Positions 2,403-52,681 of a DNA stretch of 62,597 bases are shown piece by piece. The position numbers were made by a program, and so were the translations under genes. The stretch's first letter is position 1. Every line of letters begins with the position of its first letter. Below the pieces are notes generated by a model. It did not search any database. It saw only the letters and a program-made list of their open reading frames with translations, and was not told the origin of the DNA. The DNA is from a virus. The stretch is taken from positions 1-62,597 of IMG/VR virus record IMGVR_UViG_3300044636_000600. One strand, given 5' to 3'.

Positions 2403-3210
2403 TATATTTCGGGTTGTAGTAACCAGCGGGTAAAAAGGGCTGAAGATCCTTTTTAATGTAATGCTTGACGCCAAGCCGGTTGACCATTTCCAAAATGCGA
2501 TGGGTGTATGATTCCCAATCGGTTGTGTTGGTCATGGGCAGGTAGTTGGCCCGACCGATTTTGTACAGGTCAACAAACTCGTGCGTGTGTTCGATGATGG
2601 CAAGCGACGATTCGGTATTCAGCGTCGGCTCCAGGCTGACCCACGTGAATATCCCGGCGTCATGAAACGCCTTGAGTGTCGCAATGCGGTCGCCGGGAAG
2701 TTGGGCGCCCCGCTCCCACTTGCGGCTAAAATCGTCGTCAAGTGTGGTCAAGGTGCTGGCAAAGGCGTCGCGGTCAGGGCGAAAGATGTCAATGTCGCGA
2801 ATCGCCCGACTGCCACCCTTTGTCAGCGTACAGACGCCAAGTCCGTAGCTCTGCAACGTGGTCAACACGTCACGGGTAAGCGAGTTGTCGCCGGGGTTAT
2901 AGGGGTCAGTGGTGAAACTGAGCATAACCTGTTCATTAATGCCAAGCGCCTGATATTTGCGGGCGTCCTTGCGCAAGGCATCGAGAAAGCCATCGCGGGG
3001 GAAAGCGCCAGCGTCGAAGGTCGGGCGATCCATTTTGAGAACCTTCGGAACATAACAATAAGCGCAGGCATGGCCGCATCCGCGGTAAGGGTTCGTCGCA
3101 AGCTTGGCATATTCGCCAGCTTGACCGCGAGGGGCGTAGACAATAGAGCAGCCTTTGACGCTCCAACCGTTGTCTTCGAGTTCATAGGTTCGAGTCTTGA
3201 GATTGGTCAT
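2380..3210 (-). CDS. Radical SAM protein of the spore-photoproduct-lyase-like family
   Basis: The ATG at 3210 has a good Shine-Dalgarno (GAAAGGA) and gives 276 residues. The motif CGHACAYC (C-x3-C-x2-C) binds the 4Fe-4S cluster that cleaves SAM. The following MLSFTTDPYNP and CTLTKGG segments match the SPL-like radical SAM family found next to mobile elements. The reaction is unknown: DNA repair or nucleotide modification are possibilities. The gene is the second of a leftward two-gene cassette inside an otherwise rightward region, overlaps its partner, and collides with the end of the ParB gene. This looks like an inserted accessory (moron) cassette. Confidence 0.75.
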   Translation of the reverse strand: MTNLKTRTYELEDNGWSVKGCSIVYAPRGQAGEYAKLATNPYRGCGHACAYCYVPKVLKMDRPTFDAGAFPRDGFLDALRKDARKYQALGINEQVMLSFTTDPYNPGDNSLTRDVLTTLQSYGLGVCTLTKGGSRAIRDIDIFRPDRDAFASTLTTLDDDFSRKWERGAQLPGDRIATLKAFHDAGIFTWVSLEPTLNTESSLAIIEHTHEFVDLYKIGRANYLPMTNTTDWESYTHRILEMVNRLGVKHYIKKDLQPFLPAGYYNPKYINQHHGA

Positions 3211-3388
3211 GAGTTTGTTCCTTTCGTGTAACAATAAGATTGCCTTTTGCAATCTCGCTAAACAGTGAGCGCCAAGACGGCTGTCCGGTTCCCTGTCCAG
3301 GTGGCGCAATGGCCTGGACATCGGCGGCGATGGCTTCAAGCTTTCGCCAAAGGTCGGCGGATAACTTGATTGATTTACGAACTTGCAT
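3182..3388 (-). CDS. Small ribbon-helix-helix-like DNA-binding protein
   Basis: The 68-residue protein begins MQVRKSIKLSADLWRKLEAI, a basic strand followed by a helix as in CopG/MetJ-type ribbon-helix-helix repressors. A strong Shine-Dalgarno (AGGAGGT) precedes the start. It is the first gene of the leftward cassette and overlaps the radical SAM gene by 29 bp. An inverted repeat sits directly in its promoter, so autorepression is a reasonable inference. The C-terminal half (PSWRSLFSEIAKGNLIV) is not recognised. Confidence 0.55.
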   Translation of the reverse strand: MQVRKSIKLSADLWRKLEAIAADVQAIAPPGQGTGQPSWRSLFSEIAKGNLIVTRKEQTHDQSQDSNL

Positions 3389-3399
3389 CTGTGTACCTC

Positions 3400-3439
3400 C
3401 TGTAGATAGTATATCACAAGGGAGCGCCCTTGTCTACAG
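3400..3439 (-). promoter_or_regulatory. Leftward promoter with nested inverted-repeat operator
   Basis: On the minus strand TAGACA (3436-3431) and TATACT (3413-3408) are separated by 17 bp. Between and over them lies ACAAGGG-AGCG-CCCTTGT (3416-3433), flanked by a second pair of arms, CTGTAGA (3400-3406) and TCTACAG (3433-3439). The arrangement predicts a repressor site occluding RNA polymerase upstream of the small DNA-binding protein and radical SAM genes. Confidence 0.6.
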
Positions 3440-3484
3440 TTTGGGGCAAAACTCGTGAGAAAAGTCGATTTCTTTAAGGTTGAT

Positions 3485-4039
3485 ATGGCAGCACGAAAAC
3501 GAACACCATTCCAGCGCGAGGAAGACCTTGTCCAGATCACGCGCTTATACCTGCAAGGCCGCACGCAGCGCGACATTGCTGAGGTGGTTGGCGTGTCGCA
3601 GGGGCAAGTCAATCACGATCTCAAGCTGATTCAGCAGCGTTGGCGCGAATCGTCCATCATGGACATGAACGAGGCGAAGCAACGGGAGTTGGAGCGCCTG
3701 GACATTTTAGAGCGGGAATATTGGGCTGCATGGGAGCAGTCGAAAAATGAACGCACCAGGGCGCGCCAGGAGAGCGACGGCAAGAGCAAGGACGGCAAGC
3801 CCAACGTTGTCAGGGCGACAATGGAGAGAGAGCAGCGCGACGGCAACCCCGCCTTTCTCGCTGGCGTGATGTCGTGCATCGAGCGCCGGTGCAAGCTGCT
3901 GGGGTTGGATGCGCCAGCAAAAGCGGAGTTGACCGGCAAGGATGGGGGAGCGCTAACCGTGCGGATTATTTATGATGACACAGACATTGACACTAACGCT
4001 ACCCAAGCGCTTACCCTGGCAGCAACAGGTAGTGCGTGA
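3485..4039 (+). CDS. terS: Terminase small subunit
   Basis: ATG at 3485 is preceded by AAGG and gives 184 residues; GTG 3455 is an in-frame alternative. Residues about 15-60 form a helix-turn-helix (RTQRDIAEVVGVSQGQVNHD) of the kind that recognises pac or cos DNA. A charged coiled segment follows. The gene sits directly upstream of, and overlaps by 68 bp, a clear large terminase gene. The protein would oligomerise and load the large subunit on the phage DNA. Confidence 0.8.
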   Translation: MAARKRTPFQREEDLVQITRLYLQGRTQRDIAEVVGVSQGQVNHDLKLIQQRWRESSIMDMNEAKQRELERLDILEREYWAAWEQSKNERTRARQESDGKSKDGKPNVVRATMEREQRDGNPAFLAGVMSCIERRCKLLGLDAPAKAELTGKDGGALTVRIIYDDTDIDTNATQALTLAATGSA

Positions 4040-5204
4040 GTCTAAACGCTTCAATACGGTGTGCATCGGGCGACGTGCGGGTAAGACAACGTTGGGCATT
4101 GATCGCTGCGCTACCAAAGAGACGTTAGGTTATCCGGTGGCGTGGCTTTCACCAACTTATCGCATGTTGACAGAGATATGGCGCGAAGCTAACCGCATCT
4201 TCGCGCCCATCACCGTTAGGCGTAGCGCTCAAGATCATCGGCTGGAATTCGTGACCGGTGGCGTGTTGGAATTTTGGAGCCTAGATAATCCCGATGTAGC
4301 CCGTGGGCGCAAGTACAGGCGCGTCGTAGTCGATGAAGCGGCCATGATTCCCACACTAATGGATACGTGGAATTATGTATTGCGCCCAACATTGACAGAT
4401 TACGGCGGCGATGCTTATTTTCTCAGTACACCGAAGGGGCGCAACGGCTTTTGGCAGATGTGGCAATGGGGCGTAGACCCACTACAAAGCGAATGGTCGG
4501 CGTGGCAGATGTCTAGCTATGTCAACGACAAGATTGACAGTGGTGAGTTTGACGCCATGAAAGAGGCATTGCCCGAAATGGCATATAGACAGGAGATTCT
4601 TGCGCAGTTCCTAGAGGGACAAGGCGCTGTCTTCCGCAATATCAAAGCCTGCATGAATGCGCCAGCCACCACACCGGAAGCGCACCAGGGGCACGCGTTG
4701 ATCGCCGGCATTGATTGGGGCAAGCAGAACGACTTTACCTGTATCTCTATTGGTTGCCGTGAGTGCCGGGTGGAAGTGGCAAGAGATCGGTTTAATCAGA
4801 TTGACTACGTTTTTCAGCGTGACCGGCTGAAAGCGATTCATGAGAAGTGGAAACCGGCGGCTATCCTTTGCGAGTTGAACAGCATCGGGCAGCCTAACTT
4901 TGAGATGCTGCAACGCGATGGGTTGCCAGTACATGGCTTTACCACTACCGCGGCAACCAAGCCGCCACTTATCGAAAACATGGCGCTGGCGTTCGAGCGT
5001 GCGGAATGGCAGTTCCAGCAGGATAACGTGTGGACAATGGAACTAGAGGCATTTGAACGCACGGTATCATCGACAACCGGCAGAAGTAGTTACAGCGCAC
5101 CGGACGGTGCGCATGATGATACGGTGATTGCCAGGGCGTTGATGCTGTGGCAGGCAAATAACATGTTTACCGCCGGCACATGGGGAACCAGGAAAAACAA
5201 ATGA
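3972..5204 (+). CDS. terL: Terminase large subunit (packaging ATPase and nuclease)
   Basis: The 410-residue protein has Walker A GRRAGKTT (residues 33-40), Walker B VVVDE (118-122) and the coupling motif LSTPKG (151-156). The C-terminal RNase H-like nuclease carries acidic residues at AGIDWGKQND (D248), CELNSIG (E301) and DGAHDD (D378, D382-383). These are all elements of an active DNA-packaging motor. It overlaps the small subunit upstream, and the portal start overlaps its stop (ATGA), the normal packaging operon order. Length is near the short end of the family. Confidence 0.95.
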   Translation: MMTQTLTLTLPKRLPWQQQVVRESKRFNTVCIGRRAGKTTLGIDRCATKETLGYPVAWLSPTYRMLTEIWREANRIFAPITVRRSAQDHRLEFVTGGVLEFWSLDNPDVARGRKYRRVVVDEAAMIPTLMDTWNYVLRPTLTDYGGDAYFLSTPKGRNGFWQMWQWGVDPLQSEWSAWQMSSYVNDKIDSGEFDAMKEALPEMAYRQEILAQFLEGQGAVFRNIKACMNAPATTPEAHQGHALIAGIDWGKQNDFTCISIGCRECRVEVARDRFNQIDYVFQRDRLKAIHEKWKPAAILCELNSIGQPNFEMLQRDGLPVHGFTTTAATKPPLIENMALAFERAEWQFQQDNVWTMELEAFERTVSSTTGRSSYSAPDGAHDDTVIARALMLWQANNMFTAGTWGTRKNK

Positions 5205-6646: not shown

Positions 6647-7550
6647 CGAGCCACGGAGCGTTGACCCGACCCGCACGTCGGTGCTACGCAAACGTTACCG
6701 CCAGCACTACCGGCGCATGTGGCAGCGCGTCAATGCTGCCATCAATGAGTACATCGACACTGTGGATTTTAGCCGTCCATTGGCACAACGCACGGTGGAA
6801 TTTAACCGTTTTGTTGACGCCTTGCTACAGCAGGAGTTTGGCCGAACGGAGAGAGACCGAGAGCGCGGTGTCCGTGCAATGGCAACAGTGGCGTACATGC
6901 GGGGCGTAGCTCAGGCTAACACCGAAGTGGAAGAAGCCATGCCGACGCCACAGCAGGCGGTGATGCGGGCGGATCACAATGATGCTATTGCGGCGCTTAT
7001 CCTGCTCCTGTCCACACAGTTGATGACGGTGCGGTTGGGGCTGACGGGGCAACTGCTCGACCGCTACCAACGCGCCAACAATGCCGCCGAAGCTAAGGCC
7101 ACCATTCGTGACCGCATTCAAAAGGCAGGCCGCACGCCAACGGATGGTATCGCCGCCGACGGCGTGGTGCGTGGCTACAATGAAGCGCTACTGAATGTGT
7201 ATGAAAATGCTGGCGATCAATTCGTTGGTGTGATTGACGAGAAGACTTTTTGGCAGACCGCAGAGGATAACGGTGTATGTTTCCATTGCCACCGGATGTC
7301 GCAGGAGCGAGACAACGGCTATGGCCCCGGCATTTACACGCTCGCGCAGGCGCGCGGCCTGATCCCCGCTCACCCGCGTTGCCGTTGCCGCTGGCGGCGA
7401 TTGCCAGCGAACACAGAACGCAGTCAGGGCCGCACGGTGTCTGCCACATCGTCAAGGTACGGACAATGGGACGTTCCGCAAGAGATTGGCCCAGATCCAC
7501 ATTTGCGCCGGTATACTGGTGGCGGACGGAAGTCAGTTGGGAGCGCATAG
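6633..7550 (+). CDS. Minor head protein, SPP1 gp7/Mu F-like
   Basis: ATG 6633 lies behind GGAG; an upstream in-frame GTG at 6624 is possible. The 305-residue protein ends in the Mu-F-type metal-binding pattern CFHCHRMSQ ... IPAHPRCRCRW. That pattern is diagnostic of head morphogenesis proteins that sit with the portal. The N-terminal 200 residues are helical with many Arg/Gln/Ala. It overlaps the portal gene by 14 bp. The role is internal head assembly or ejection. Confidence 0.85.
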   Translation: MPTANEPRSVDPTRTSVLRKRYRQHYRRMWQRVNAAINEYIDTVDFSRPLAQRTVEFNRFVDALLQQEFGRTERDRERGVRAMATVAYMRGVAQANTEVEEAMPTPQQAVMRADHNDAIAALILLLSTQLMTVRLGLTGQLLDRYQRANNAAEAKATIRDRIQKAGRTPTDGIAADGVVRGYNEALLNVYENAGDQFVGVIDEKTFWQTAEDNGVCFHCHRMSQERDNGYGPGIYTLAQARGLIPAHPRCRCRWRRLPANTERSQGRTVSATSSRYGQWDVPQEIGPDPHLRRYTGGGRKSVGSA

Positions 7551-7937: not shown

Positions 7938-9995
7938 ATGCCGAGCTATACCTACAACGGGGTGACAGTCACAGCGACGGGGCGAAGAACCTCAACCCGT
8001 GACGACAAAAAGTATATGCGGACTGTCACGAAGGATGGCAAAGATTACCTCGTCCACTACGGCGATCCTGACATGGAAATGAAGCGAGACGATCCCGACC
8101 GACGCAAGGCATTTTTGGAGCGCCATAGCTGTAGCACGAAGAAAGACCCGTTAGCGCCTGGTTTCTGGGCGTGTCTCGATTGGCAGCGAACCGATGAGGG
8201 TGCAACCGTGAACGAACAAGACAACGAAGCACAACCCGCCAACAACGCCACCCTGTTTACCGTGCCAGAGGGCGCGCAGTTTAACGGCGCAATCGTGGCG
8301 CTGTTCCCCTCACCCGAATTGGCGCAACAAATTGCGGCCATGCCTGGTGTGCAGATGACCGCCGACGCCTTGCACGTTACCCTGGCCTATTTGGGTAAAG
8401 TGGACAGCTTGACCGATGCACAACTGGCAAACGCCATTGTGGCAGCGCAACAGATTGCGCGCGACTTCGGAAAGTTGACCGGCGCGATTAATGGCATGGG
8501 CCGCTTTAATGCAAGCCAATCTTCCGACGGCAAAGACGTGATCTACGCCGTGGTTGATGTGCCTGGACTTGAGCGGCTGCGCGAGGCGGTTGTGCAGCGT
8601 CTGCGTTACGCCGATGTGCCGGTGTCGATGAACCACGGATTTACGCCACACATGACACTCAGTGAGGTTGAGCCGGGGACTGAATCGCCTATCAGCATGA
8701 TCCCCACTATGCCGCTTGAATTTGGTTCTATCAGCGTGTCGGTCGCCACCAGACAGGTTGATTTTCCACTAGCTGGCGACGGCTACATGCGCGCTAACGC
8801 CGCCCCGCCGTGGCCTGGCGACCGCACAGCCATCGCAGCTAATGCCGATTGTGGGTGCAACACCGTGCAGTTGACCACCAACGCCACGGCGGGGACAGTC
8901 AAGGAGGTCACGCGCAAAGGCACGCGTTATCTGGTAGCGCCGACGGTGGCCCTTCGCTCTGGCGTGCTAAATGGTGAGTTTGTGCCGGCTGACGAGGTGG
9001 CAAAATACGCCGACGCCTGGAACGGGCGCCCTGTGCCGTTGGGCCACCCAAAGCAGGACGGGCAAGCGATCAGCGCCAACAGCATGGATCTGTGGGATAA
9101 AACCCCGGCTATGTTCTGGGGCGCAACGGTGGACGGCGACGCGCTCAAAGGTGAATTTTGGGTTGACATTGCTAAGGCCGAAAAACTTGGCGGAGAAGCG
9201 ACGCTACTATTGCAGCGCCTGCGCAACAACGAAGCCATCGACGTGTCAACCGGCTATTTCCGCGACTTTATCGAATCGCCTGGGACGCATGACGGCAAAG
9301 CATACACCGGCATTGCGCGTAACCTACGGCCCGATCATATCGCAATTCTCTTAAACGAAACCGGCGCGTGTAGCTGGGCGGATGGGTGCGGGGTTCCTCG
9401 CATCAACGAAGCCAAAGCCGCAGAGAACGCCAGTCAATCTTTTCTTAGCGCATTGGTGCGCAATGTTATCAATTCACTTGGAGGTAAAAAAGTGGATCGA
9501 ACCAAGATTATTGAAGGGCTTGCAGCCAATGCGCAATGCAAATGCAGCAAGCAGCAATTGGAAGCGATGGATGATGCAACGCTGACCGCGTTCGCCAGTT
9601 CATTGCAGCCAGTTGTCAATGAGGAAGCGCCCGCCGTTGAACCGGCGCCGGTGGAAGTGGTCAAAGAGGTTGTGCCGGCTGAACTGGCACAACTGGCGAA
9701 GGTCGTCGCTGACTTTGGCGGTATTGACAAGTTGACGGCGGCGCTGTCCGGCGTGGTTGCCAACGCCGACAAGGAGCGCGCCGATCTGGTTGCTGGTCTG
9801 GTTGCCAACGAACGCAACACACTCAGTGAGGCTGAACTGAAAGCCATGCCGGTGGAAACGTTGCGCAAGTTGACAAGCGCCTTCGCGGCCCGTTTCTATG
9901 TCGGTAGCGGCAATGTGGCGACCAACGCCACTGAGGAACCGCGCTACACCACGATGGCGATGCCGCTTGTCTTTCCGAAAAAGGAGGCCAAATAA
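7938..9995 (+). CDS. Fused 2H phosphoesterase, DUF2213 prohead protease and scaffold-like protein
   Basis: This 685-residue protein has several parts. Residues 1-85 hold YGDPDMEMKRDDPDRRKAFL and RHSC...FWACLDW, a motif seen at the N-terminus of several phage head proteins. Residues about 115-280 are a 2H phosphoesterase with both catalytic motifs, LHVTLAYLG (H146, T148) and TPHMTLSEV (H238, T240). Residues about 315-500 match DUF2213 (FVPADEVAKYADAWNGRPVP, LGHP, DVSTGYF, LRPDHIAILL), a prohead protease family. The Ala/Glu-rich C-terminus (about 540-685) resembles an internal scaffold. 2H enzymes of the Acb1 type cleave cyclic nucleotide signals of CBASS defence; that role here is inference. 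Confidence 0.8.
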   Translation: MPSYTYNGVTVTATGRRTSTRDDKKYMRTVTKDGKDYLVHYGDPDMEMKRDDPDRRKAFLERHSCSTKKDPLAPGFWACLDWQRTDEGATVNEQDNEAQPANNATLFTVPEGAQFNGAIVALFPSPELAQQIAAMPGVQMTADALHVTLAYLGKVDSLTDAQLANAIVAAQQIARDFGKLTGAINGMGRFNASQSSDGKDVIYAVVDVPGLERLREAVVQRLRYADVPVSMNHGFTPHMTLSEVEPGTESPISMIPTMPLEFGSISVSVATRQVDFPLAGDGYMRANAAPPWPGDRTAIAANADCGCNTVQLTTNATAGTVKEVTRKGTRYLVAPTVALRSGVLNGEFVPADEVAKYADAWNGRPVPLGHPKQDGQAISANSMDLWDKTPAMFWGATVDGDALKGEFWVDIAKAEKLGGEATLLLQRLRNNEAIDVSTGYFRDFIESPGTHDGKAYTGIARNLRPDHIAILLNETGACSWADGCGVPRINEAKAAENASQSFLSALVRNVINSLGGKKVDRTKIIEGLAANAQCKCSKQQLEAMDDATLTAFASSLQPVVNEEAPAVEPAPVEVVKEVVPAELAQLAKVVADFGGIDKLTAALSGVVANADKERADLVAGLVANERNTLSEAELKAMPVETLRKLTSAFAARFYVGSGNVATNATEEPRYTTMAMPLVFPKKEAK

Positions 9996-31930: not shown

Positions 31931-32020
31931 ATGATTAGGCAAACCACAATCGCACTGATTATTGTTTTCATGCTGGCCGCGTTGGCTAACATCGTGGTTG
32001 TCCGGTGTCACGAAGAATAG
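31931..32020 (+). CDS. 29-residue membrane peptide
   Basis: The peptide is MIRQTTIALIIVFMLAALAN followed by IVVVRCHEE: one hydrophobic helix with a positive N-terminus and an acidic end. No Shine-Dalgarno is present, and the ATG sits at the expected transcription start of the promoter just upstream. It lies between the tail genes and a short coiled-coil gene, a common place for lysis genes, so a holin or spanin-like part is possible but unproven. Confidence 0.45.
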   Translation: MIRQTTIALIIVFMLAALANIVVVRCHEE

Positions 32021-32043
32021 GGTCAAAAAAGGACGTGGAAACG

Positions 32044-32229
32044 ATGATAAACTTTCAGGAACGAAAGAAAACTTTGTCGCAGGACATCAACGCCCAGCAG
32101 GCGGAGATTAGACGAATTGAAACCGCGCTAAAAGAGGCGGAAGTGCTGCTGGCACGCCTAGAGGGTGCGGCGCTACTGTGCGACGAATTTACAGCACAGC
32201 AGGCTAAGGAGCAGCAGGCGACGCAATAA
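32044..32229 (+). CDS. Short coiled-coil protein
   Basis: ATG 32044 has AAGGA upstream; an in-frame ATG at 32005 is weaker. The 61-residue product is a single amphipathic coiled coil (QDINAQQAEIRRIETALKEA, then EVLLARLEG). It is the last gene of the late block, ending at a strong terminator. Function unknown; perhaps a partner of the upstream membrane peptide. Confidence 0.6.
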   Translation: MINFQERKKTLSQDINAQQAEIRRIETALKEAEVLLARLEGAALLCDEFTAQQAKEQQATQ

Positions 32230-32230
32230 A

Positions 32231-32274
32231 ACGAACACAGCGCCAACCGGGGTAATGGTTGGCGCTGTGTTCGT
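32231..32274. terminator. Bidirectional terminator between late genes and CRISPR locus
   Basis: A perfect 18-bp stem, ACGAACACAGCGCCAACC with GGTTGGCGCTGTGTTCGT, and an 8-nt loop. It lies between convergent units: the late operon ending at 32229 and the leftward ParB gene ending at 32286. T-rich tails are weak on both sides. Confidence 0.8.
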
Positions 32275-32285
32275 GTGGTACTCCC

Positions 32286-33419
32286 CTATCGTTCCTGGCG
32301 CGAGATTTCCAGGGATGACCAAGCCAGTACGCTGGATGAGATTTCGGTATTTTTCCCAGTGGCACGCTCAAGCGACGCCACCTTGATACGCAACTCGCTG
32401 TTCTCTCGGTAGAGCCTGGCGTTGTCGGCCAGCACTTTTTCGATAGCGTCGGCATGATCGTCAATAATGCCTTGCGCATAGGAGCGCACTCTTTCCAAGT
32501 GTGTCGCCAGCATAGCGGCTGATTCTGGCACCTGGGGGAAAAGAGCGGCTACGCGTGCCACTTCCTCCCCGGCGCGGTTGATGGCATCGCGCACAGTGGC
32601 GAAGTGACGGCGGTGCAATTGCTCTTGTCCGATGGGCGTAGCGGCTTTTTGCTCCTCTCTTGCCCGATCTCGCTTCTTGCGTTCAACCTTCTGTGCTTTT
32701 TCCTTTTTGGCAAATTCCAGCAGCGTGTCGGGCATCCCAGCATCAACCCACTTTTTTACGTAGGTTGGCTTTGCCGGTGTTCGGCGCGCTTCATCCTGCA
32801 ATCGATTGCGCTCCGGTAGTGTTAGCGCATATTCACCCGCCAGTTGGTCAAGCTCCGGTCTGGGTGGCACGACATTCCAGAAGGACAGGATGCGGTCAGC
32901 CAGCGATTCAACAGGGATATTCCACACAACTGACTTGGCGGCAAACCAGTCGTATAGTTCCGCCTGTTCGCCAACCAGCTGGCTGCGGTCTAACTTGGCA
33001 TAGAGGCTTTGCGACTGGCGGTAATTTTCCCCACGAAACATTTGCCACAAATGGGCGGCAATTTCCTCTTTCGCGTTTGTGCGGTGTCCCCAATCGGTTT
33101 CCCAACTCTTTTCCATCCATTCATAAAGACGGCTATTCTCAATGCTGTGATGTGGTTTGGCGGCCATGATCCGTAGATCCCAGAAGCGGCTCTCCGCAAG
33201 GTCAACCAGGACAATACGGATTTTGCCAAGCCCTGCCCGATGCGCGGCCACTACGCGATGTAGACCGTCGATAATTTTGCGATTGTGCAGGCAGACATAA
33301 GGCGGGAAAACAATTTGACCTTTGTGCGCCGGGAGAGAATTGATAATCTCCTGGACGTGCGCTTCATTGACCGTCCAATCAACGAGAAGTTCACCGGGAT
33401 CAACTTCGACAATCGTCAT
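32286..33419 (-). CDS. ParB/Srx-domain protein downstream of the Cas12-like gene
   Basis: ATG 33419 with GGGAAAG upstream gives 377 residues, starting 28 bp after the Cas12-like stop. A longer reading from 33527 would overlap that gene. Residues 1-75 are a ParB N-terminal-type domain: IVEVDPGELLVDW, HVQEIINSLPAHKGQI, then IIDGLHRVVAAHRAG, matching the G-x-H-R nucleotide-binding box. The middle is unrecognised. The C-terminal 100 residues form a long coiled coil (ADNARLYRENSELRIKVASL). It shares the transcript of the CRISPR locus. ParB proteins bind DNA and CTP or act as nucleases; its link to the guide system is inferred from synteny only. Confidence 0.75.
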   Translation of the reverse strand: MTIVEVDPGELLVDWTVNEAHVQEIINSLPAHKGQIVFPPYVCLHNRKIIDGLHRVVAAHRAGLGKIRIVLVDLAESRFWDLRIMAAKPHHSIENSRLYEWMEKSWETDWGHRTNAKEEIAAHLWQMFRGENYRQSQSLYAKLDRSQLVGEQAELYDWFAAKSVVWNIPVESLADRILSFWNVVPPRPELDQLAGEYALTLPERNRLQDEARRTPAKPTYVKKWVDAGMPDTLLEFAKKEKAQKVERKKRDRAREEQKAATPIGQEQLHRRHFATVRDAINRAGEEVARVAALFPQVPESAAMLATHLERVRSYAQGIIDDHADAIEKVLADNARLYRENSELRIKVASLERATGKNTEISSSVLAWSSLEISRQER

Positions 33420-33447
33420 GCTTTCCCGTTCGTTGGCAGTAAAAACA

Positions 33448-34962
33448 TTATCTAAAACTTTGGTGGAATCCACGGTAGCCTCCCTTAGTTCCCCATTCGC
33501 TCTTGCGATACATAACCCGCCGCGCAATATTGACGGCTTTCGTAATTCCTAGCGGAACAGACGCCCCACATTGCGCACAAACAGCATTGCTTTCTTGGCG
33601 CGAGCAGTCGCCGCCACACCGGATGCAAATGCCCATCGCTTTCGCCGGAAACACACCGGTGCGGTACGGAATGCCCATCATCTTACATTTGTAGGCAATG
33701 ATGAACTCCGCTTTTGTCCATAGGCGTTTCAGCTTCTTCTCATTGCGCTTGCTGTAAATGCCGTTGGTATCCATCATTGCAATGCCAGCGCCGTGCGTCT
33801 TTGCCGTTTGCAGCATTTGGTTGATCAGCAGGTGCAAAAGTTCATCCTGCGCTGATGTGCGATAATCTAGGTAGGAGACCGCCTTGCCCTGCTGCTGCTT
33901 GCGACGGATCTGCTTCTGCGCGTCCATCTTCAAATCGAGAATACCTGTTTCGCTCTGGTGCGTTTGCATCAACTCACCTGTTTTGCCTACAATGGCATAG
34001 GTTAAGTTGTAAAGCACGTTGTCGGTAATCCCCATGTACCCCTTTGGCTCATAGGGCGCGGGCGCTGGGAAAGCTACCGACACATTGATGTAATAATGAC
34101 CACGGCGCTTGATAACTTTGGCCGATTTGGGAACGCCATTGCCGTCAAGCATGGCGAGTAGAAACTTACGAAACTGCCAGTGGAATTGACCGCCACGCTT
34201 GCCAAGTTCCAACGGCAGCAGCAGCCCGTTGCGCTTCTTGCCCGCCTGGATCGGGGTGACGCCATCCGGGTCATTGCTCCACAGGGTCAGCATGTTCTTT
34301 TGCCCAAAGTCGGTAATGCCGGTGCGCTTGTCATCGTTGGGCAGCAGGGGCAAATAAATATAGGGATGCTTGAGGTCGGAGGTAATCAGTAAGTCAAAGT
34401 CACGGCCACGCGTGTAGGTCAATGGACGCTCCTTGACGAAGGCTTTGCGACGCATATCGGCGGCTAGGTCACTTTCCCGGCGACGGTCAAGCAGCAGCGC
34501 CACCTCGTCTGCAACCTCCGCAATATCAGCGCCGGAACGCAGCGCGCCAGCACGCCCTACTGTATCCAACGTGCCAAATGCGGACAAGGCGCGGGCGCGG
34601 GGTTCGTCGGTGACAACGGTTTCCGCCGTCGGCCAGTTATTGAGCAAGTCAGTGCTTTCCAGTTCCAAGTAGCTGGCAATCATGCCGCACACGTCCGAGA
34701 AGATGCCGTCTTTTAGTGATGAGGATAGCGGGACGCGCCACTCCGTACCAGTGGGCAAGCAGGGCCGGATGCTATCGGCGTTGTACACGCCTTTACTCGT
34801 GCGCCCGTTAGTACGAATGTTGTCCAGGTGTTCATGCGCCCAATCGAGCAAGCGCTGCACCTGGCTTGTGTATTCCTGCATGGCGAAATCGAGTAATTCT
34901 TGCTTACGCCGTGTCGGGGTTCGCAGGCGAAACGACACGGTGATGAATGCTTGTTTTTGCAT
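33448..34962 (-). CDS. Compact Cas12/TnpB-family effector, probably nuclease-dead
   Basis: ATG 34962 follows TAGGTG; GTG 34968 would add two residues. The 504-residue protein starts with a Cas12/TnpB-type strand and helix (ITVSFRLRTPTRRKQELLDF). The wedge-like segment VIKRRGHYYINVSVAF precedes RuvC. RuvC-I reads YMGITDNVLYNLTYAIV, with Thr at the usual Asp or Asp one residue late (D314). RuvC-II reads GIAMMDTNGI, with Met397 at the Glu position. The zinc ribbon CIRC...CAQC (C446, C449, C462, C465) is intact. After it, CGASVPLGITKAVNI aligns without gaps to the canonical CG-x4-AD-x-NAA-x-NI, so RuvC-III Asp is Gly472. It lies beside a CRISPR array and tracrRNA candidate without TnpA, Cas1 or Cas2. 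Expected role: guide-directed DNA binding without cutting. Subtype undetermined. Confidence 0.88.
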   Translation of the reverse strand: MQKQAFITVSFRLRTPTRRKQELLDFAMQEYTSQVQRLLDWAHEHLDNIRTNGRTSKGVYNADSIRPCLPTGTEWRVPLSSSLKDGIFSDVCGMIASYLELESTDLLNNWPTAETVVTDEPRARALSAFGTLDTVGRAGALRSGADIAEVADEVALLLDRRRESDLAADMRRKAFVKERPLTYTRGRDFDLLITSDLKHPYIYLPLLPNDDKRTGITDFGQKNMLTLWSNDPDGVTPIQAGKKRNGLLLPLELGKRGGQFHWQFRKFLLAMLDGNGVPKSAKVIKRRGHYYINVSVAFPAPAPYEPKGYMGITDNVLYNLTYAIVGKTGELMQTHQSETGILDLKMDAQKQIRRKQQQGKAVSYLDYRTSAQDELLHLLINQMLQTAKTHGAGIAMMDTNGIYSKRNEKKLKRLWTKAEFIIAYKCKMMGIPYRTGVFPAKAMGICIRCGGDCSRQESNAVCAQCGASVPLGITKAVNIARRVMYRKSEWGTKGGYRGFHQSFR

Positions 34963-34976
34963 AGACACACCTATAT

Positions 34977-35821
34977 ATCACACTTACCTAAATCCTACTT
35001 CGCGTACTGCAACTCTGAACCATCCGCGCCACTGCTGACCATACCGTGATGTCACACTTATCTAAATCCTACTTTGCGTATTGCAACTCCACAAACAAGG
35101 AAGAATCAACCAGGTCAAGGTAACGTCACACTTATCTAAATCCTACTTTGCGTATTGCAACCTGCTGGCTGGCGCAAGCAACGACACGTCAAGGCGCAGT
35201 CACACTTACCTAAATCCTGTTTCGCTTACTGCAACAACAACAACTTTTGGATCGACGTGTCGCTATTCAAGGTCACACTTACCTAAATCCTGTTTCGCTT
35301 ACTGCAACACCGAATTGCGCAAGGTGTCGCCAAAGGAATGGCATGTCACACTTATCTAAATCCTACTTCGCTTACTGCAACCCGGCACCGTGGGGAAAAG
35401 CTGGGTGGCGTAAGTGGTCACACTTATCTAAATCCTACTTCGCTTACTGCAACCGTTCGGTGGCAAAGCTGGCCTGGTGATGGCAACGGGTCACACTTAT
35501 CTAAATCCTACTTCGCTTACTGCAACTGGCTAAGAATATGCGGATGCCAAAAAATCGACTGATGTCACACTTATCTAAATCCTACTTCGCTTACTGCAAC
35601 GGCGCTACCTGGACGAAATCGACATTAACCAACTATGTCACACTTATCTAAATCCTACTTCGCTTACTGCAACTGAAGCGCCAGAAGCTCTTTGCATCGC
35701 TCACGGTAGCGTCACACTTATCTAAATCCTGTTTCGCGTACTGCAACGAATTGCTGATAGTACGCCAACTGGTCAGGCTGTAGCGTCACACTTATCTAAA
35801 TCCTGTTTCGCGTACTGCAAC
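34977..35821 (-). CRISPR. CRISPR array: 12 repeats of 37 nt, 11 spacers of 35-37 nt
   Basis: Repeats start at 34977, 35051, 35125, 35199, 35272, 35345, 35417, 35490, 35564, 35637, 35711 and 35785. Read on the minus strand, the inferred direction, each begins GTTGCAGTA and ends AAGTGTGAC, with AGGATTTAG in the middle. Direction is supported by the promoter and anti-repeat at the right and by the most divergent repeat (34977) at the left, distal end. Variants fall in adjacent blocks (1; 2-3; 4-5; 6-10; 11-12). Spacers are all different and look like protein-coding DNA. I saw no full-length match in the window by eye. Confidence 0.98.
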
Positions 35822-35984
35822 CGCACATTCGCAAGACGAAATTTTCGACCCGCATGTATCCGGCACGCCCAATCTCGCAATCTGGGCGGTTCTGTGCGGT
35901 CAATTCTCGTTACCATTGACAGATTCTCCGCTCATCATCATCGCCGGTTCTCAACTCACTTTTTGCACAAAAACGGGGGTGGTT

Positions 35985-36158
35985 TGCGAAAAGGTCAGGG
36001 AGTAGGTTTCCCTACTCCCCCAAAACAGGATTTAGCCGCTACACAGTAGCTATTGCCCCCGACCTTTCGGCTCCCTGCGTATCGTCCGCCGCAAATGCAA
36101 GCACCAGGGCAGATCGTCCGCGCAAGGCACGGGGCGCGCAGTGTGTGACTACTACGCG
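35985..36158 (-). ncRNA. Candidate tracrRNA / CRISPR leader RNA
   Basis: Downstream of the promoter at 36193-36165 the minus-strand transcript would contain hairpin GCTAC-TGT-GTAGC (36050-36038). Two nt later comes the anti-repeat CTAAATCCTGTTT (36035-36023). Three nt later is a perfect 9-bp hairpin GGGAGTAGG-GAAA-CCTACTCCC (36019-35998) closed by a GNRA tetraloop; the GAAA loop exists only on this strand. The anti-repeat pairs 13/13 with one repeat class (AAACAGGATTTAG). With the other class (AAGTAGGATTTAG) it also pairs 13/13 if two G-U wobbles are allowed. Ends are estimated. Confidence 0.65.
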
Positions 36159-36164
36159 AGAAAT

Positions 36165-36193
36165 ATCATATCATGAAATATAAACGTTGTCAA
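36165..36193 (-). promoter_or_regulatory. Consensus sigma70 promoter of the CRISPR-Cas12 locus
   Basis: On the minus strand TTGACA (36193-36188), exactly 17 bp, then TATGAT (36170-36165); transcription would start near 36158. The -35 box is part of TTGACAACGT, shared with two other leftward promoters of this window (46337 and 61928). Confidence 0.75.
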
Positions 36194-36231
36194 GAATCCC
36201 TATATGGGGAATTCATACCGATTTTAGATAT

Positions 36232-36441
36232 TTAGTACCCCCTCTTCACTCTCATCACTCTTTTCGTCCGCCGCTCCGTGTGCCCGTGATGCCACTGGCC
36301 GCAGTGTGGGCAACGATACGCCCTGGTGCGTTCACCCGTGTGTCTGCGCAACGACAGTGACGCGCTGACCGCTTCCGCCTGCGTCGGGTGGCTACGTTTC
36401 CACTCGCAGGCTTTCTTTCGTTGGTGGCGTTTGCTCGCCAT
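36232..36441 (-). CDS. Small basic zinc-ribbon protein
   Basis: ATG 36441 follows a perfect AAAGGAG. The 69-residue product is very basic and has CPHCGQWHHGH, a C-x2-C plus two His that can bind one zinc ion. It is the last gene of the long leftward early operon and overlaps the gene before it by 50 bp. Likely a nucleic-acid-binding accessory protein; exact role unknown. Confidence 0.65.
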   Translation of the reverse strand: MASKRHQRKKACEWKRSHPTQAEAVSASLSLRRHTGERTRAYRCPHCGQWHHGHTERRTKRVMRVKRGY

Positions 36442-36619
36442 GCCCATCTCCTTTCGCATCCTCCCACCTCCCCGCAATCGACACAACCCAGCGTTGCCCG
36501 TCCCACCGCATGGCAACGGCTCCCCGCAATTTGGCAGCTTCCCACAAGTTGATGAGGGCGACGGCGGCGGCAACATCGTGGACGTGGCCTAGTTCGTTGG
36601 GGTCGGTTATACCTTGCAT
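36392..36619 (-). CDS. Hypothetical protein downstream of the sliding clamp
   Basis: 75 residues; the start lies immediately after the clamp stop (TAG then ATG) with AAGG upstream. The sequence (HVHDVAAAVALINLWEAAKL, then MRWDGQRWVVSIAGRWED) suggests a helix followed by a small beta hairpin. No family recognised. Tight spacing with the clamp gene suggests co-expression. Confidence 0.6.
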   Translation of the reverse strand: MQGITDPNELGHVHDVAAAVALINLWEAAKLRGAVAMRWDGQRWVVSIAGRWEDAKGDGHGEQTPPTKESLRVET

Positions 36620-37813
36620 CTATGCACCTTGCTTCGGGGGGTGCATCGGCATCAACAATTGATACCCATCGACACCATCACCCGCCATGATCATTACCGG
36701 TCTGGTCGGCTGCGTCGTTTGCAGGATAACCTTCGGTGTGTCGATGTGCGATAGCGCATCAATCAGAAATTTGGCATCAAGCGCCATTTCGATGGAGTCG
36801 CCTTCGATTGCGCACGGCAATTCGCTGGCGTTGTTGCCCATTTCCGCGCTGGCGGCGAACAGCCTCACCTTGCCTTGCCCGTGAATGCTGCCATCCGGTA
36901 TTACCTGACAGCGAATAATGTTGGCGTTATCGCGCGCAAACAGCAACGCCACCTTTGCTGCTTTGAGTAGGTCAGCCGTGGAAATAACGGTTGTAGTGTT
37001 GGCCGACTTTGGCACCTTAGCGCGATAGTTAGGGAATCGGGCGTCGATCAATTCGCTAACAACATCTACCCGCTGCCACTCACCGCCCCCAGTGGCACTG
37101 AATAGAATTTGATTGCGCTTTTCGCTGACAACCACATTGATCATGCCGACGCTGCCATCAGCAATGCGGGCCACTTCAGCAAGACTGCGTGCGGGAATGA
37201 CAACGGCGTTTTTCTCCGTCTCCATAGTGGCCTCACACGATCTCACGCTGAGGCGATAACCGTCCGTTGCGGCCATTGTCAATTTTCCATTGTCAAAGGT
37301 GGTTTCAATGCCGGTTAGCGTGGGCCGATTTTCATCCGCTGAGGCGGCAAACGCAACAGACTCAATGGTCTCCGTCATTTGCTTTGCATCCACCGCGTAA
37401 GCGTCGCCCGTCACCGTGGGCGAATCGGGGAGTGCTGATTCCGGTTGGTAGGTGGGCAACAGCGGAAATTCGACGGCGTCAATCCCCTTGATGTTGGCCT
37501 CAAAGCGGGCACAACTGAGGTGAAGCATCTGGGTGCGCACAGCCAGTTCCATGCCAATGCGCTCTGGCGGTAGGCTGTTGACGTATTCCGCCAACAATCG
37601 TGCCGGGATGGTGGTAGCGCCGTCCTCATGCACTTCAGCGGCAATCCAGCAGTTGATGCCGATTTCCCGGTTGGTTGCCGATAGCCGCAACCGGTCGCCG
37701 GTGGCGTCCAGAAGAATGTTGCTCAGTACCGGCATGGTGGTACGGCCCGACACGGCGCGCCCGACAATGGATAGAGCGGCGGATAGGTTCTTTTGTGATA
37801 CGGTTAGTTTCAT
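36620..37813 (-). CDS. dnaN: DNA polymerase III sliding clamp (beta subunit)
   Basis: 397 residues with the full three-domain beta clamp layout. Domain 1 starts MKLTVSQKNLSAALSIVGRA with TTMPVLSNILLDA. Domain 2 includes TGIETTFDNGKLTMAATDGY and RLSVR, the family's TDG(H/Y)RL signature. Domain 3 starts near TVISTADLLKAAKVALLFAR and ends YQLLMPM. The ring tethers polymerase to DNA. No polymerase gene is visible in the window, so the clamp may recruit the host enzyme or an unseen phage polymerase. Confidence 0.93.
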   Translation of the reverse strand: MKLTVSQKNLSAALSIVGRAVSGRTTMPVLSNILLDATGDRLRLSATNREIGINCWIAAEVHEDGATTIPARLLAEYVNSLPPERIGMELAVRTQMLHLSCARFEANIKGIDAVEFPLLPTYQPESALPDSPTVTGDAYAVDAKQMTETIESVAFAASADENRPTLTGIETTFDNGKLTMAATDGYRLSVRSCEATMETEKNAVVIPARSLAEVARIADGSVGMINVVVSEKRNQILFSATGGGEWQRVDVVSELIDARFPNYRAKVPKSANTTTVISTADLLKAAKVALLFARDNANIIRCQVIPDGSIHGQGKVRLFAASAEMGNNASELPCAIEGDSIEMALDAKFLIDALSHIDTPKVILQTTQPTRPVMIMAGDGVDGYQLLMPMHPPKQGA

Positions 37814-50977: not shown

Positions 50978-52681
50978 GTGAGTGAATTGCAACAAGTATC
51001 AGTAGACAAGCTACGACCGCACCCGCAAAACCCGCGCTTGGTACAGCGTGAGGATGTGATCGCCAGCATCGAAACACAGTTACGCGAAAAGGGAAGTTTT
51101 GACCCAGCCCATGCGTTGTTGGTTCGTCCGGTTGCCGATGGCTATCAGATTGTCATGGGCCACCATCGCCACGCCGCAGCCAAACGTGCAGGGCTGACCA
51201 CCGTGCCTTGCTGGGTGCGCACTATCAGCGACAGCGAAGCCTTTATGTTGCTTGCCACCAGCAACGAGCAGAGTGACATGACCCCGCTTGAATGGGGTAT
51301 GCACGCGCTGAACTATCAAGGCAAACTGAAAGAGTACGCTGCCATCGTGGGGAAGGCAGAGAGCAGCATGTACGAAAACCGCAAAGCGGCGGAAGTGTTG
51401 CGGCATTTTAATGAAAAAACTCGAACGTTCGAGATCTCTGCCGAAGGCAAAACTCGAACGTTCGAGTTTTTGGATAAGACGAGTCATTTGTATGCAATCA
51501 GCAAATCAGATCAGTCTATTTGGATGTTGCTTTGCAACTGGATGCTAAATGGCAATAAGGGTCAGCGCGAAGTTGTTGACATCGTTGATGAGGTCAAGCA
51601 ACTAAAGTCTGACCACGCCTTTTTGCAACCCTACGAAAAGGTTGTTAGCCGCTACCTGGAAAACCGCAGCATTGACGGGAAGTCGGTCAAGATGCTGGGC
51701 GATCTAGTGGATAGCACGGTCAAGGCTATCCACCAACGCAGAGACGATCACCCCGAAAGCACCATCGATTTCGATGGCTATATTGATGAGTTCTACCACT
51801 GGCTAATTGACAACAGCGGCGGCGATTCGTGGAACGTTGCCAAGGTTCGCACCCATCGTTCGGAGCTTATCAGAAAGCTTGACACCGAACTGTCTTTGGT
51901 CGGTCGAGTTGCGCTTTACGTTGCCGTTGCTGAATCGTTGCCGCTGCAAGACGAGTCGGTCAATGTCGTTATCACGTCACCGCCCTACAACCTGGGCGCC
52001 AAGAATTGGGACATGGGTGGGGGTGGGCGTGAAAAGCGCGACGGGATTGGCTATGACTCTACCGAGGATTCTATGGACTACGATCAGTACATTGAATGGC
52101 AGATCGCAGTTTTTAAGGAACTGTACCGGGTGGCCCGCCCTGGCGCGTCATTCTTCTACAACCACAAAGCGCGCACGCTTGACGGTCACTGCATTGATCC
52201 GGTGTCATGGGTGATTCGTTCTGATAACCCCTGGACGTATCGCCAGCGGCTAACCTGGGATCGCACGTCAACCCACAATCACGAACCACGCCTTTTCGAC
52301 CAAGTTGACGAAACAATCATTTGGATGACAAAGGGCAAGCCGGCACTTTCCGAGCGCGGTATCGTTGGTGTCAAGTCGGTTTGGTCAGAGTTTGGCCCTA
52401 TCCCGAACACTTGGCACCCCGCCCCATTCACTATCGAACTGCCAAGAATGTTGCTACGTGCCATTGGCGCCGACGTTTTATCTGGGCAAGACAAAGACTT
52501 CACTGTGCTTGACCCATTTGCGGGCAGTTGCACCACCATCGAAGCAGCGCTTGAATTTGGCTGCAAAGGGATCGGTATTGATAAGTCAGAAAGCTATCTG
52601 CGTAAGGCGATTGACGCCCGCCTGGGTAGCGGTTGGTCTTTTGAATTATTGCATGGAGAAAACACTGAAGATGCGGAATGA
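50978..52681 (+). CDS. ParB-domain and DNA methyltransferase fusion
   Basis: 567 residues; GTG start with GAGGTG. Residues 1-110 are a ParB domain (VDKLRPHPQNPRLVQREDVI, IVMGHHRHAAAKRAG). A helical middle follows. Residues about 320-560 form a permuted methyltransferase: the catalytic VVITSPPYNLG comes first and motif I (VLDPFAGSCTTIEAALEFGC) last, the beta-class order of N4/N6 enzymes. The phage probably protects its DNA or marks replication sites. Two copies of a 14-bp palindrome lie within the coding region. Confidence 0.85.
   Translation: MSELQQVSVDKLRPHPQNPRLVQREDVIASIETQLREKGSFDPAHALLVRPVADGYQIVMGHHRHAAAKRAGLTTVPCWVRTISDSEAFMLLATSNEQSDMTPLEWGMHALNYQGKLKEYAAIVGKAESSMYENRKAAEVLRHFNEKTRTFEISAEGKTRTFEFLDKTSHLYAISKSDQSIWMLLCNWMLNGNKGQREVVDIVDEVKQLKSDHAFLQPYEKVVSRYLENRSIDGKSVKMLGDLVDSTVKAIHQRRDDHPESTIDFDGYIDEFYHWLIDNSGGDSWNVAKVRTHRSELIRKLDTELSLVGRVALYVAVAESLPLQDESVNVVITSPPYNLGAKNWDMGGGGREKRDGIGYDSTEDSMDYDQYIEWQIAVFKELYRVARPGASFFYNHKARTLDGHCIDPVSWVIRSDNPWTYRQRLTWDRTSTHNHEPRLFDQVDETIIWMTKGKPALSERGIVGVKSVWSEFGPIPNTWHPAPFTIELPRMLLRAIGADVLSGQDKDFTVLDPFAGSCTTIEAALEFGCKGIGIDKSESYLRKAIDARLGSGWSFELLHGENTEDAE
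51420..51470 (+). repeat. Twin palindromes inside the ParB-methyltransferase gene
   Basis: CTCGAACGTTCGAG occurs at 51420-51433 and 51453-51466, and the second copy is part of a perfect 22-bp palindrome (51449-51470). Copies are 33 bp apart. In the protein they encode the duplicated KTRTFE segments. A DNA-binding site is suspected. Confidence 0.6.

Follow-up and report, generated by a model that had tools for sequence, protein, structure and literature searches.

A predicted phage transcription unit pairs a CRISPR array and an apparently nuclease-dead Cas12f-like effector with a divergent ParB-like protein

On the minus strand of a phage genome a CRISPR array, a cas12 gene and a parB-like gene form one predicted transcription unit, in which the parB-like gene is last. 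Judged from its sequence, the Cas12f-like effector has lost all three catalytic acids of its RuvC region. The preferred reading, held with middling confidence, is that it binds target DNA under RNA guidance and blocks it without cleavage, and that the ParB-like protein is its co-effector.

The window, the whole stretch of DNA analysed, is IMG/VR record IMGVR_UViG_3300044636_000600 (62,597 bases). It contains genes for terminase, portal, Erf, primase, DnaB and DnaN, and is therefore a tailed phage. The host is likely to belong to the Chloroflexota; the terminase has 54% identity to that on a Chloroflexota MAG contig and 64% identity to that on a MAG contig labelled Saccharibacteria. Elsewhere in the window, the first half of a single ORF (7938-9995, plus strand) matches a 2'-5' RNA ligase family and the second half matches head-maturation-protease families, and 40273-40839 matches dCTP deaminase. 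The phage-encoded DNA polymerase III beta clamp (DnaN; 36620-37813, minus strand) lies just upstream of the CRISPR block. A sister phage (IMGVR_UViG_3300042543_000295) carries the same block. In order on the minus strand, the unit comprises a promoter, a tracrRNA-like RNA, the 12-repeat array, the effector, the parB-like gene and a terminator; these features and a neighbouring ORF are listed by position in the window.

36232..36441, minus strand: small basic zinc-ribbon-like ORF of 69 aa (5 nonsynonymous and 17 synonymous differences to the sister phage)
36165..36193, minus strand: sigma70-type promoter, TTGACA-17-TATGAT with extended -10 TG (11/12 matches; kept in the sister phage)
35989..36158, minus strand: putative tracrRNA with antirepeat, second short match and 3' hairpin (from sequence and pairing)
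34977..35821, minus strand: CRISPR array, 12 repeats of 37 nt and 11 unique spacers of 35-37 nt
33448..34962, minus strand: predicted nuclease-dead Cas12f-like effector of 504 aa (506 aa if GTG 34968 is the start), zinc ribbon kept, RuvC D/E/D replaced
32286..33473, minus strand: ParB-N-like protein of about 395 aa from GTG 33473, with the DGLHRVVAAHRAG motif, overlapping cas12 by 26 nt
32231..32274, minus strand: intrinsic terminator, 18-bp stem followed by TTTTATT, directly 3' of the parB stop

The promoter (36193-36165), upstream of the array, is the sole minus-strand promoter-like site in 32000-36600, and the same scan revealed none between cas12 and parB, as the first-pass annotation had stated. 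Its proposal that the two genes are co-transcribed is borne out, as a prediction, by this single promoter, the overlap of the genes and the terminator right after parB. The terminator stem is also present downstream of parB in the sister phage (L002 4166-4207). No cas1 or cas2 was seen adjoining the array. The 69-aa ORF lies upstream of the promoter and is probably not a member of the transcription unit, yet it falls within the block common to both phages.

The effector was assigned to Cas12 mainly by sequence profiles. The family profile searched against PDB gave Cas12f chains as best matches (E down to 1.8e-23) and the PADLOC Cas12f model matched the effector with E = 4e-7. Foldseek placed AsCas12f and OsCas12f on top, in support only, as the AlphaFold model is moderate (pLDDT 56) and the TM-scores are low, so that the profiles carry the weight of the assignment. 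Cas12m ranked far below Cas12f in both the family profile search and Foldseek. Type V features are present, namely an array adjoining the effector and a single Cas12 with a RuvC-like region and a zinc ribbon. Of the V-F features, Cas12f is the closest among known effectors and an antirepeat RNA is found, whereas the catalytic D/E/D is absent; the subtype is provisionally described as V-F-like.

The description of Cas12 as nuclease-dead in the first-pass annotation agrees with an alignment to the closest intact relative, a 36%-identical Chloroflexota protein, in which the RuvC motifs read GID / LED / SDD versus GIT / MMD / LGI in the phage. The catalytic acids D, E and D thus appear as T, M and a non-acidic residue, a loss common to both phages, while the zinc ribbon, the C-terminus and the flanking residues are kept. 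Since the dead Cas12 still has an array and a candidate tracrRNA, RNA-guided DNA binding without cutting is well supported by the anatomy of the locus as its probable activity.

The final repeat of the array stops 14 nt ahead of the cas12 ATG. The repeat has two forms, CGAAACAGG and CGAAGTAGG, and the antirepeat pairs with both, with the second via G-U wobble. This antirepeat (36035-36021, CTAAATCCTGTTTTG) gives a 15-nt pairing with the repeat, and CTAAATCCTGTTT has a single minus-strand occurrence in the window. The antirepeat forms 15 contiguous pairs, whereas the longest run among 1000 randomly chosen 170-nt stretches of the phage was 13. It was contiguous pairing that singled the antirepeat out; judged by duplex energy on its own, the match was not extreme. 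The putative tracrRNA also has a second short repeat match (GTCACAC, 36149-36143) and a 3' hairpin (36019-35998). A search of Rfam gave no match to a known RNA for the RNA of the unit. The promoter and tracr region is 241/242 identical to the sister phage, compared with 93% for the remaining leader. The leader RNA may function as a tracrRNA.

The targets were sought with the 14 spacers of the two phages. None matched any of 50,697 phages, and a comparison with 72,556 plasmids gave only one 24-nt match, which is at chance level (E = 7). Seeds of two spacers were searched against all viral contigs; one search gave nothing and the other only the sister array. Against their own and the sister contig the spacers gave just 10-17-nt chance matches, and as neither contig is matched by its own spacers, self-regulation is disfavoured. 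The unit more probably silences foreign or host DNA.

The parB-like gene had been drawn from ATG 33419 in the first-pass annotation, with a gap of 28 bp to cas12. A minus-strand frame ending at 32286 does lie directly downstream of cas12, but this start and the gap, which results from choosing the later ATG, are probably wrong. GTG 33473, in the same frame, is preceded by a GGGAGG ribosome-binding site inside cas12, shows no difference from the sister phage in its surrounding sequence, and is probably the best start. Translation of the two genes is likely to be coupled through the resulting overlap (33473-33448).

Assignment of the protein to ParB, also made in the first-pass annotation, holds above shuffled controls but is remote. 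Pfam gave no ParB match; TIGR00180 (E = 0.016) and PHROG gave weak ParB matches at residues 17-84 of the ATG-start protein. In hhalign, a small profile built from true ParB domains, most of them of solved structure, scored 29.6 versus a maximum of 23.7 in 150 shuffles, and with two Chloroflexota relatives added the comparison reached E = 2e-5. When the ORFs of all loci were searched with hmmsearch, the ParB-like protein came second, and only the true ParB_N-methyltransferase of the phage scored better. In that protein (50978-52681, plus strand), an N6/N4 DNA methyltransferase is fused to a ParB_N domain that Pfam recognises unambiguously (E = 4.6e-14). In the ParB-like protein, DGLHRVVAAHRAG occupies the place of the ParB motif GERRxRAA..AGL, with DGLHR for GERR and GLHR kept; a third CTP motif of the ENLQR type (ENxxR) was not recognisable. 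The C-terminal half is largely helical, and no known HTH or nuclease domain was found in the protein. An AlphaFold model (pLDDT 42) was not used. The protein is best regarded as divergent and ParB-N-like. An AAA_31 search of the window, which may be a fragment of the phage, revealed no ParA, and an ordinary partition operon was rejected as unlikely because ParA is missing from the window.

Comparison with the sister phage indicates that both genes are maintained. The shared block, which runs from the small ORF and ends shortly after parB, is 94-96% identical in its coding part. The two phages are 86-96% identical across most of the virion region, and the DNA adjoining the block does not align. 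The dN/dS values of cas12 (0.079) and parB (0.099) indicate purifying selection, and since the block also recurs in the second phage, parB is not a chance ORF. The array of the sister phage has 4 repeats and 3 spacers, and no spacer is common to both phages.

Relatives were sought among viral contigs (by protein, profile and repeat), genome contigs (by Cas12), plasmids, phages and the Chloroflexota class, phylum and orders. These searches yielded the one sister phage, the intact Chloroflexota protein with 36% identity, TnpBs and intact Cas12s that are distantly related. A ParB-like gene adjoined cas12 in none of the five nuclease-intact homologues, which are on a Salinibacter plasmid (L004, with array), phage J2-1 (L005), a Pseudoalteromonas plasmid (L006, with array), a 7-kb viral contig (L008) and a Chloroflexota contig (L020/L027). 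Homologous Cas12 loci regularly lacking parB had been named in advance as evidence against the pairing, and here the outcome is split: the five intact homologues are without it, and the sole other dead homologue has it. This is suggestive only of ParB having joined upon loss of the nuclease, with pairing tracking lost cleavage in one lineage. As the pair occurs in just two closely related phages, its co-occurrence amounts to one evolutionary event.

Several of the intact loci may be described in their own right. The Chloroflexota protein is a Cas12f/TnpB-like protein of 481 aa (L027:6220-7665); upstream of it lies a small ribbon-helix-helix-like ORF, and the 8.8-kb contig has no array. Miniature intact Cas12s with arrays are encoded on plasmids of Pseudoalteromonas spongiae (L006:2253-2709 and 2761-4227; annotated TnpB) and Salinibacter ruber (L004:4788-6185 and 6750-7059; annotated zinc ribbon protein). 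Pseudoalteromonas phage J2-1 has an unannotated intact Cas12/TnpB-like ORF of ~483 codons (L005:4611-6059), with no detectable array nearby.

If the preferred reading of a non-cleaving binder and its co-effector is right, guides from the array and the leader-encoded tracrRNA would direct the dead Cas12 to matching DNA, presumably that of competitors (other phages or plasmids) or of the host, where the bound protein would block transcription or replication. The ParB-like protein would be made from the cas12 message by overlapping translation and, most likely, would join Cas12 on the target, where it would bind DNA, associate with itself and stabilise or extend the block. Its role may be one of clamping or spreading. 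A bolder version, which is unlikely though worth stating, has the dead Cas12 and its guide replacing parS and nucleating a ParB-like clamp or spreading complex, giving the phage long-range, programmable silencing without cutting.

It is possible, if rather doubtful, that silencing needs only the dead Cas12, on the model of Cas12m, which works without a partner (PMC11013384), and that the parB-like gene shares the message but encodes an independent DNA-binding protein of the phage, such as an autoregulator or one involved in genome maintenance or replication. Phages commonly encode ParB-like domains, this phage has the second, methyltransferase-fused one, and the Chloroflexota relatives of the domain came from searches with the ParB-like protein and were not linked to Cas12. 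Independence is harder to reconcile with the overlapping translation, the terminator directly after parB, the end of the conserved block just past parB and the lack of ParA. The first-pass annotation had also suggested that ParB might provide the missing effector activity. That it is a nuclease restoring target destruction to the dead Cas12 is improbable, as the protein matches no nuclease family and the suggestion is left without sequence support, even though a nuclease annotation is attached to some members of the ParB/Srx fold (in PHROG, for instance, 'ParB-like partition nuclease') and two-component pairs of Cas12 and a nuclease exist (Cas12-Cas3, PMC10910872).

The phage tracrRNA and dead Cas12 could soak up host crRNAs as an anti-CRISPR decoy, as proposed for the phage Cas9 variant II-C2 (PMC10910872); in favour of this is the combination of an inactivated phage-encoded effector with a tracrRNA-like RNA. 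The phage Cas12 unit differs from II-C2 in carrying its own 11-spacer array, the spacers differ between the sister phages, and the repeat is absent from 396 genomes of the Chloroflexota class and from every other viral contig; a decoy for host arrays was rejected because of the array and the absence of the repeat from those genomes, and is very improbable. Least credible is a decaying remnant, with parB as a bystander to a relic cas12 that resembles a pseudogene. Loss of the catalytic residues would fit decay, but the strong purifying selection on both genes led to its rejection, and the near-identity of the promoter and tracr region and the turnover of spacers also speak against it.

Among known systems, Cas12f / V-U3-like (V-F) effectors share with the phage protein a similar size, the zinc ribbon, a tracrRNA and the best profile and fold matches. 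The phage unit differs from them in the replacement of all RuvC acids, the ParB-like gene and its location in a phage. Cas12m, the effector of V-M, uses crRNA alone. The phage effector is closer to Cas12f than to Cas12m, and the phage unit has a tracrRNA-like RNA in its leader and the extra ParB-like gene; what it has in common with V-M is a RuvC inactivated (in the phage, by sequence), an expected binding action and an association with mobile elements (PMC11656645). Blocking of transcription by non-cleaving type V systems is established for V-M and V-C (PMC12669027, PMC11013384). Dead or non-cutting Cas12 also occurs with extra proteins in the combinations of inactivated Cas12 with IscB and an HTH protein and of Cas12m with Cas3 (PMC10910872), where the partners are different and the main text reports no ParB. 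The ParB of ParABS systems appears to share the ParB-N-like domain, by a remote match, and the GxxR helix motif, whereas the phage unit is without ParA, its protein has no recognised HTH and a diverged third CTP motif, and the gene forms part of a CRISPR unit.

The literature searched yielded no Cas12-ParB pair, and the main texts of a 2023 survey of rare CRISPR systems, a 2024 review of mobile elements and a 2025 classification make no mention of ParB. Even if the two proteins do not cooperate, the phage still carries a dead Cas12f-like system equipped with an array of its own, a tracrRNA candidate and changing spacers. If they do cooperate, the choice of guide RNA would determine where on DNA a ParB-like protein is placed, a cut-free mode of CRISPR action not met in the literature searched, and ParB spreading would become programmable. 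The nearest published parallel is TIGR-TasA, found in phages and parasitic bacteria, in which a ParB-like gene (tasParB) is in an operon with an RNA-guided DNA-binding system (PMC12045711). The likeness, one of arrangement, is an RNA-guided DNA-targeting protein encoded with a ParB-like gene; the guide arrays and effectors are unrelated, TIGR having dual short repeats and a Tas protein, whereas the phage has 37-nt repeats, 35-37-nt spacers and Cas12. RNA-guided loading of ParB in the phage would make this a second, independent pairing of an RNA-guided binder with ParB, and, together with TIGR-TasA and tasParB, cooperation would suggest that RNA-guided binders have recruited ParB repeatedly.
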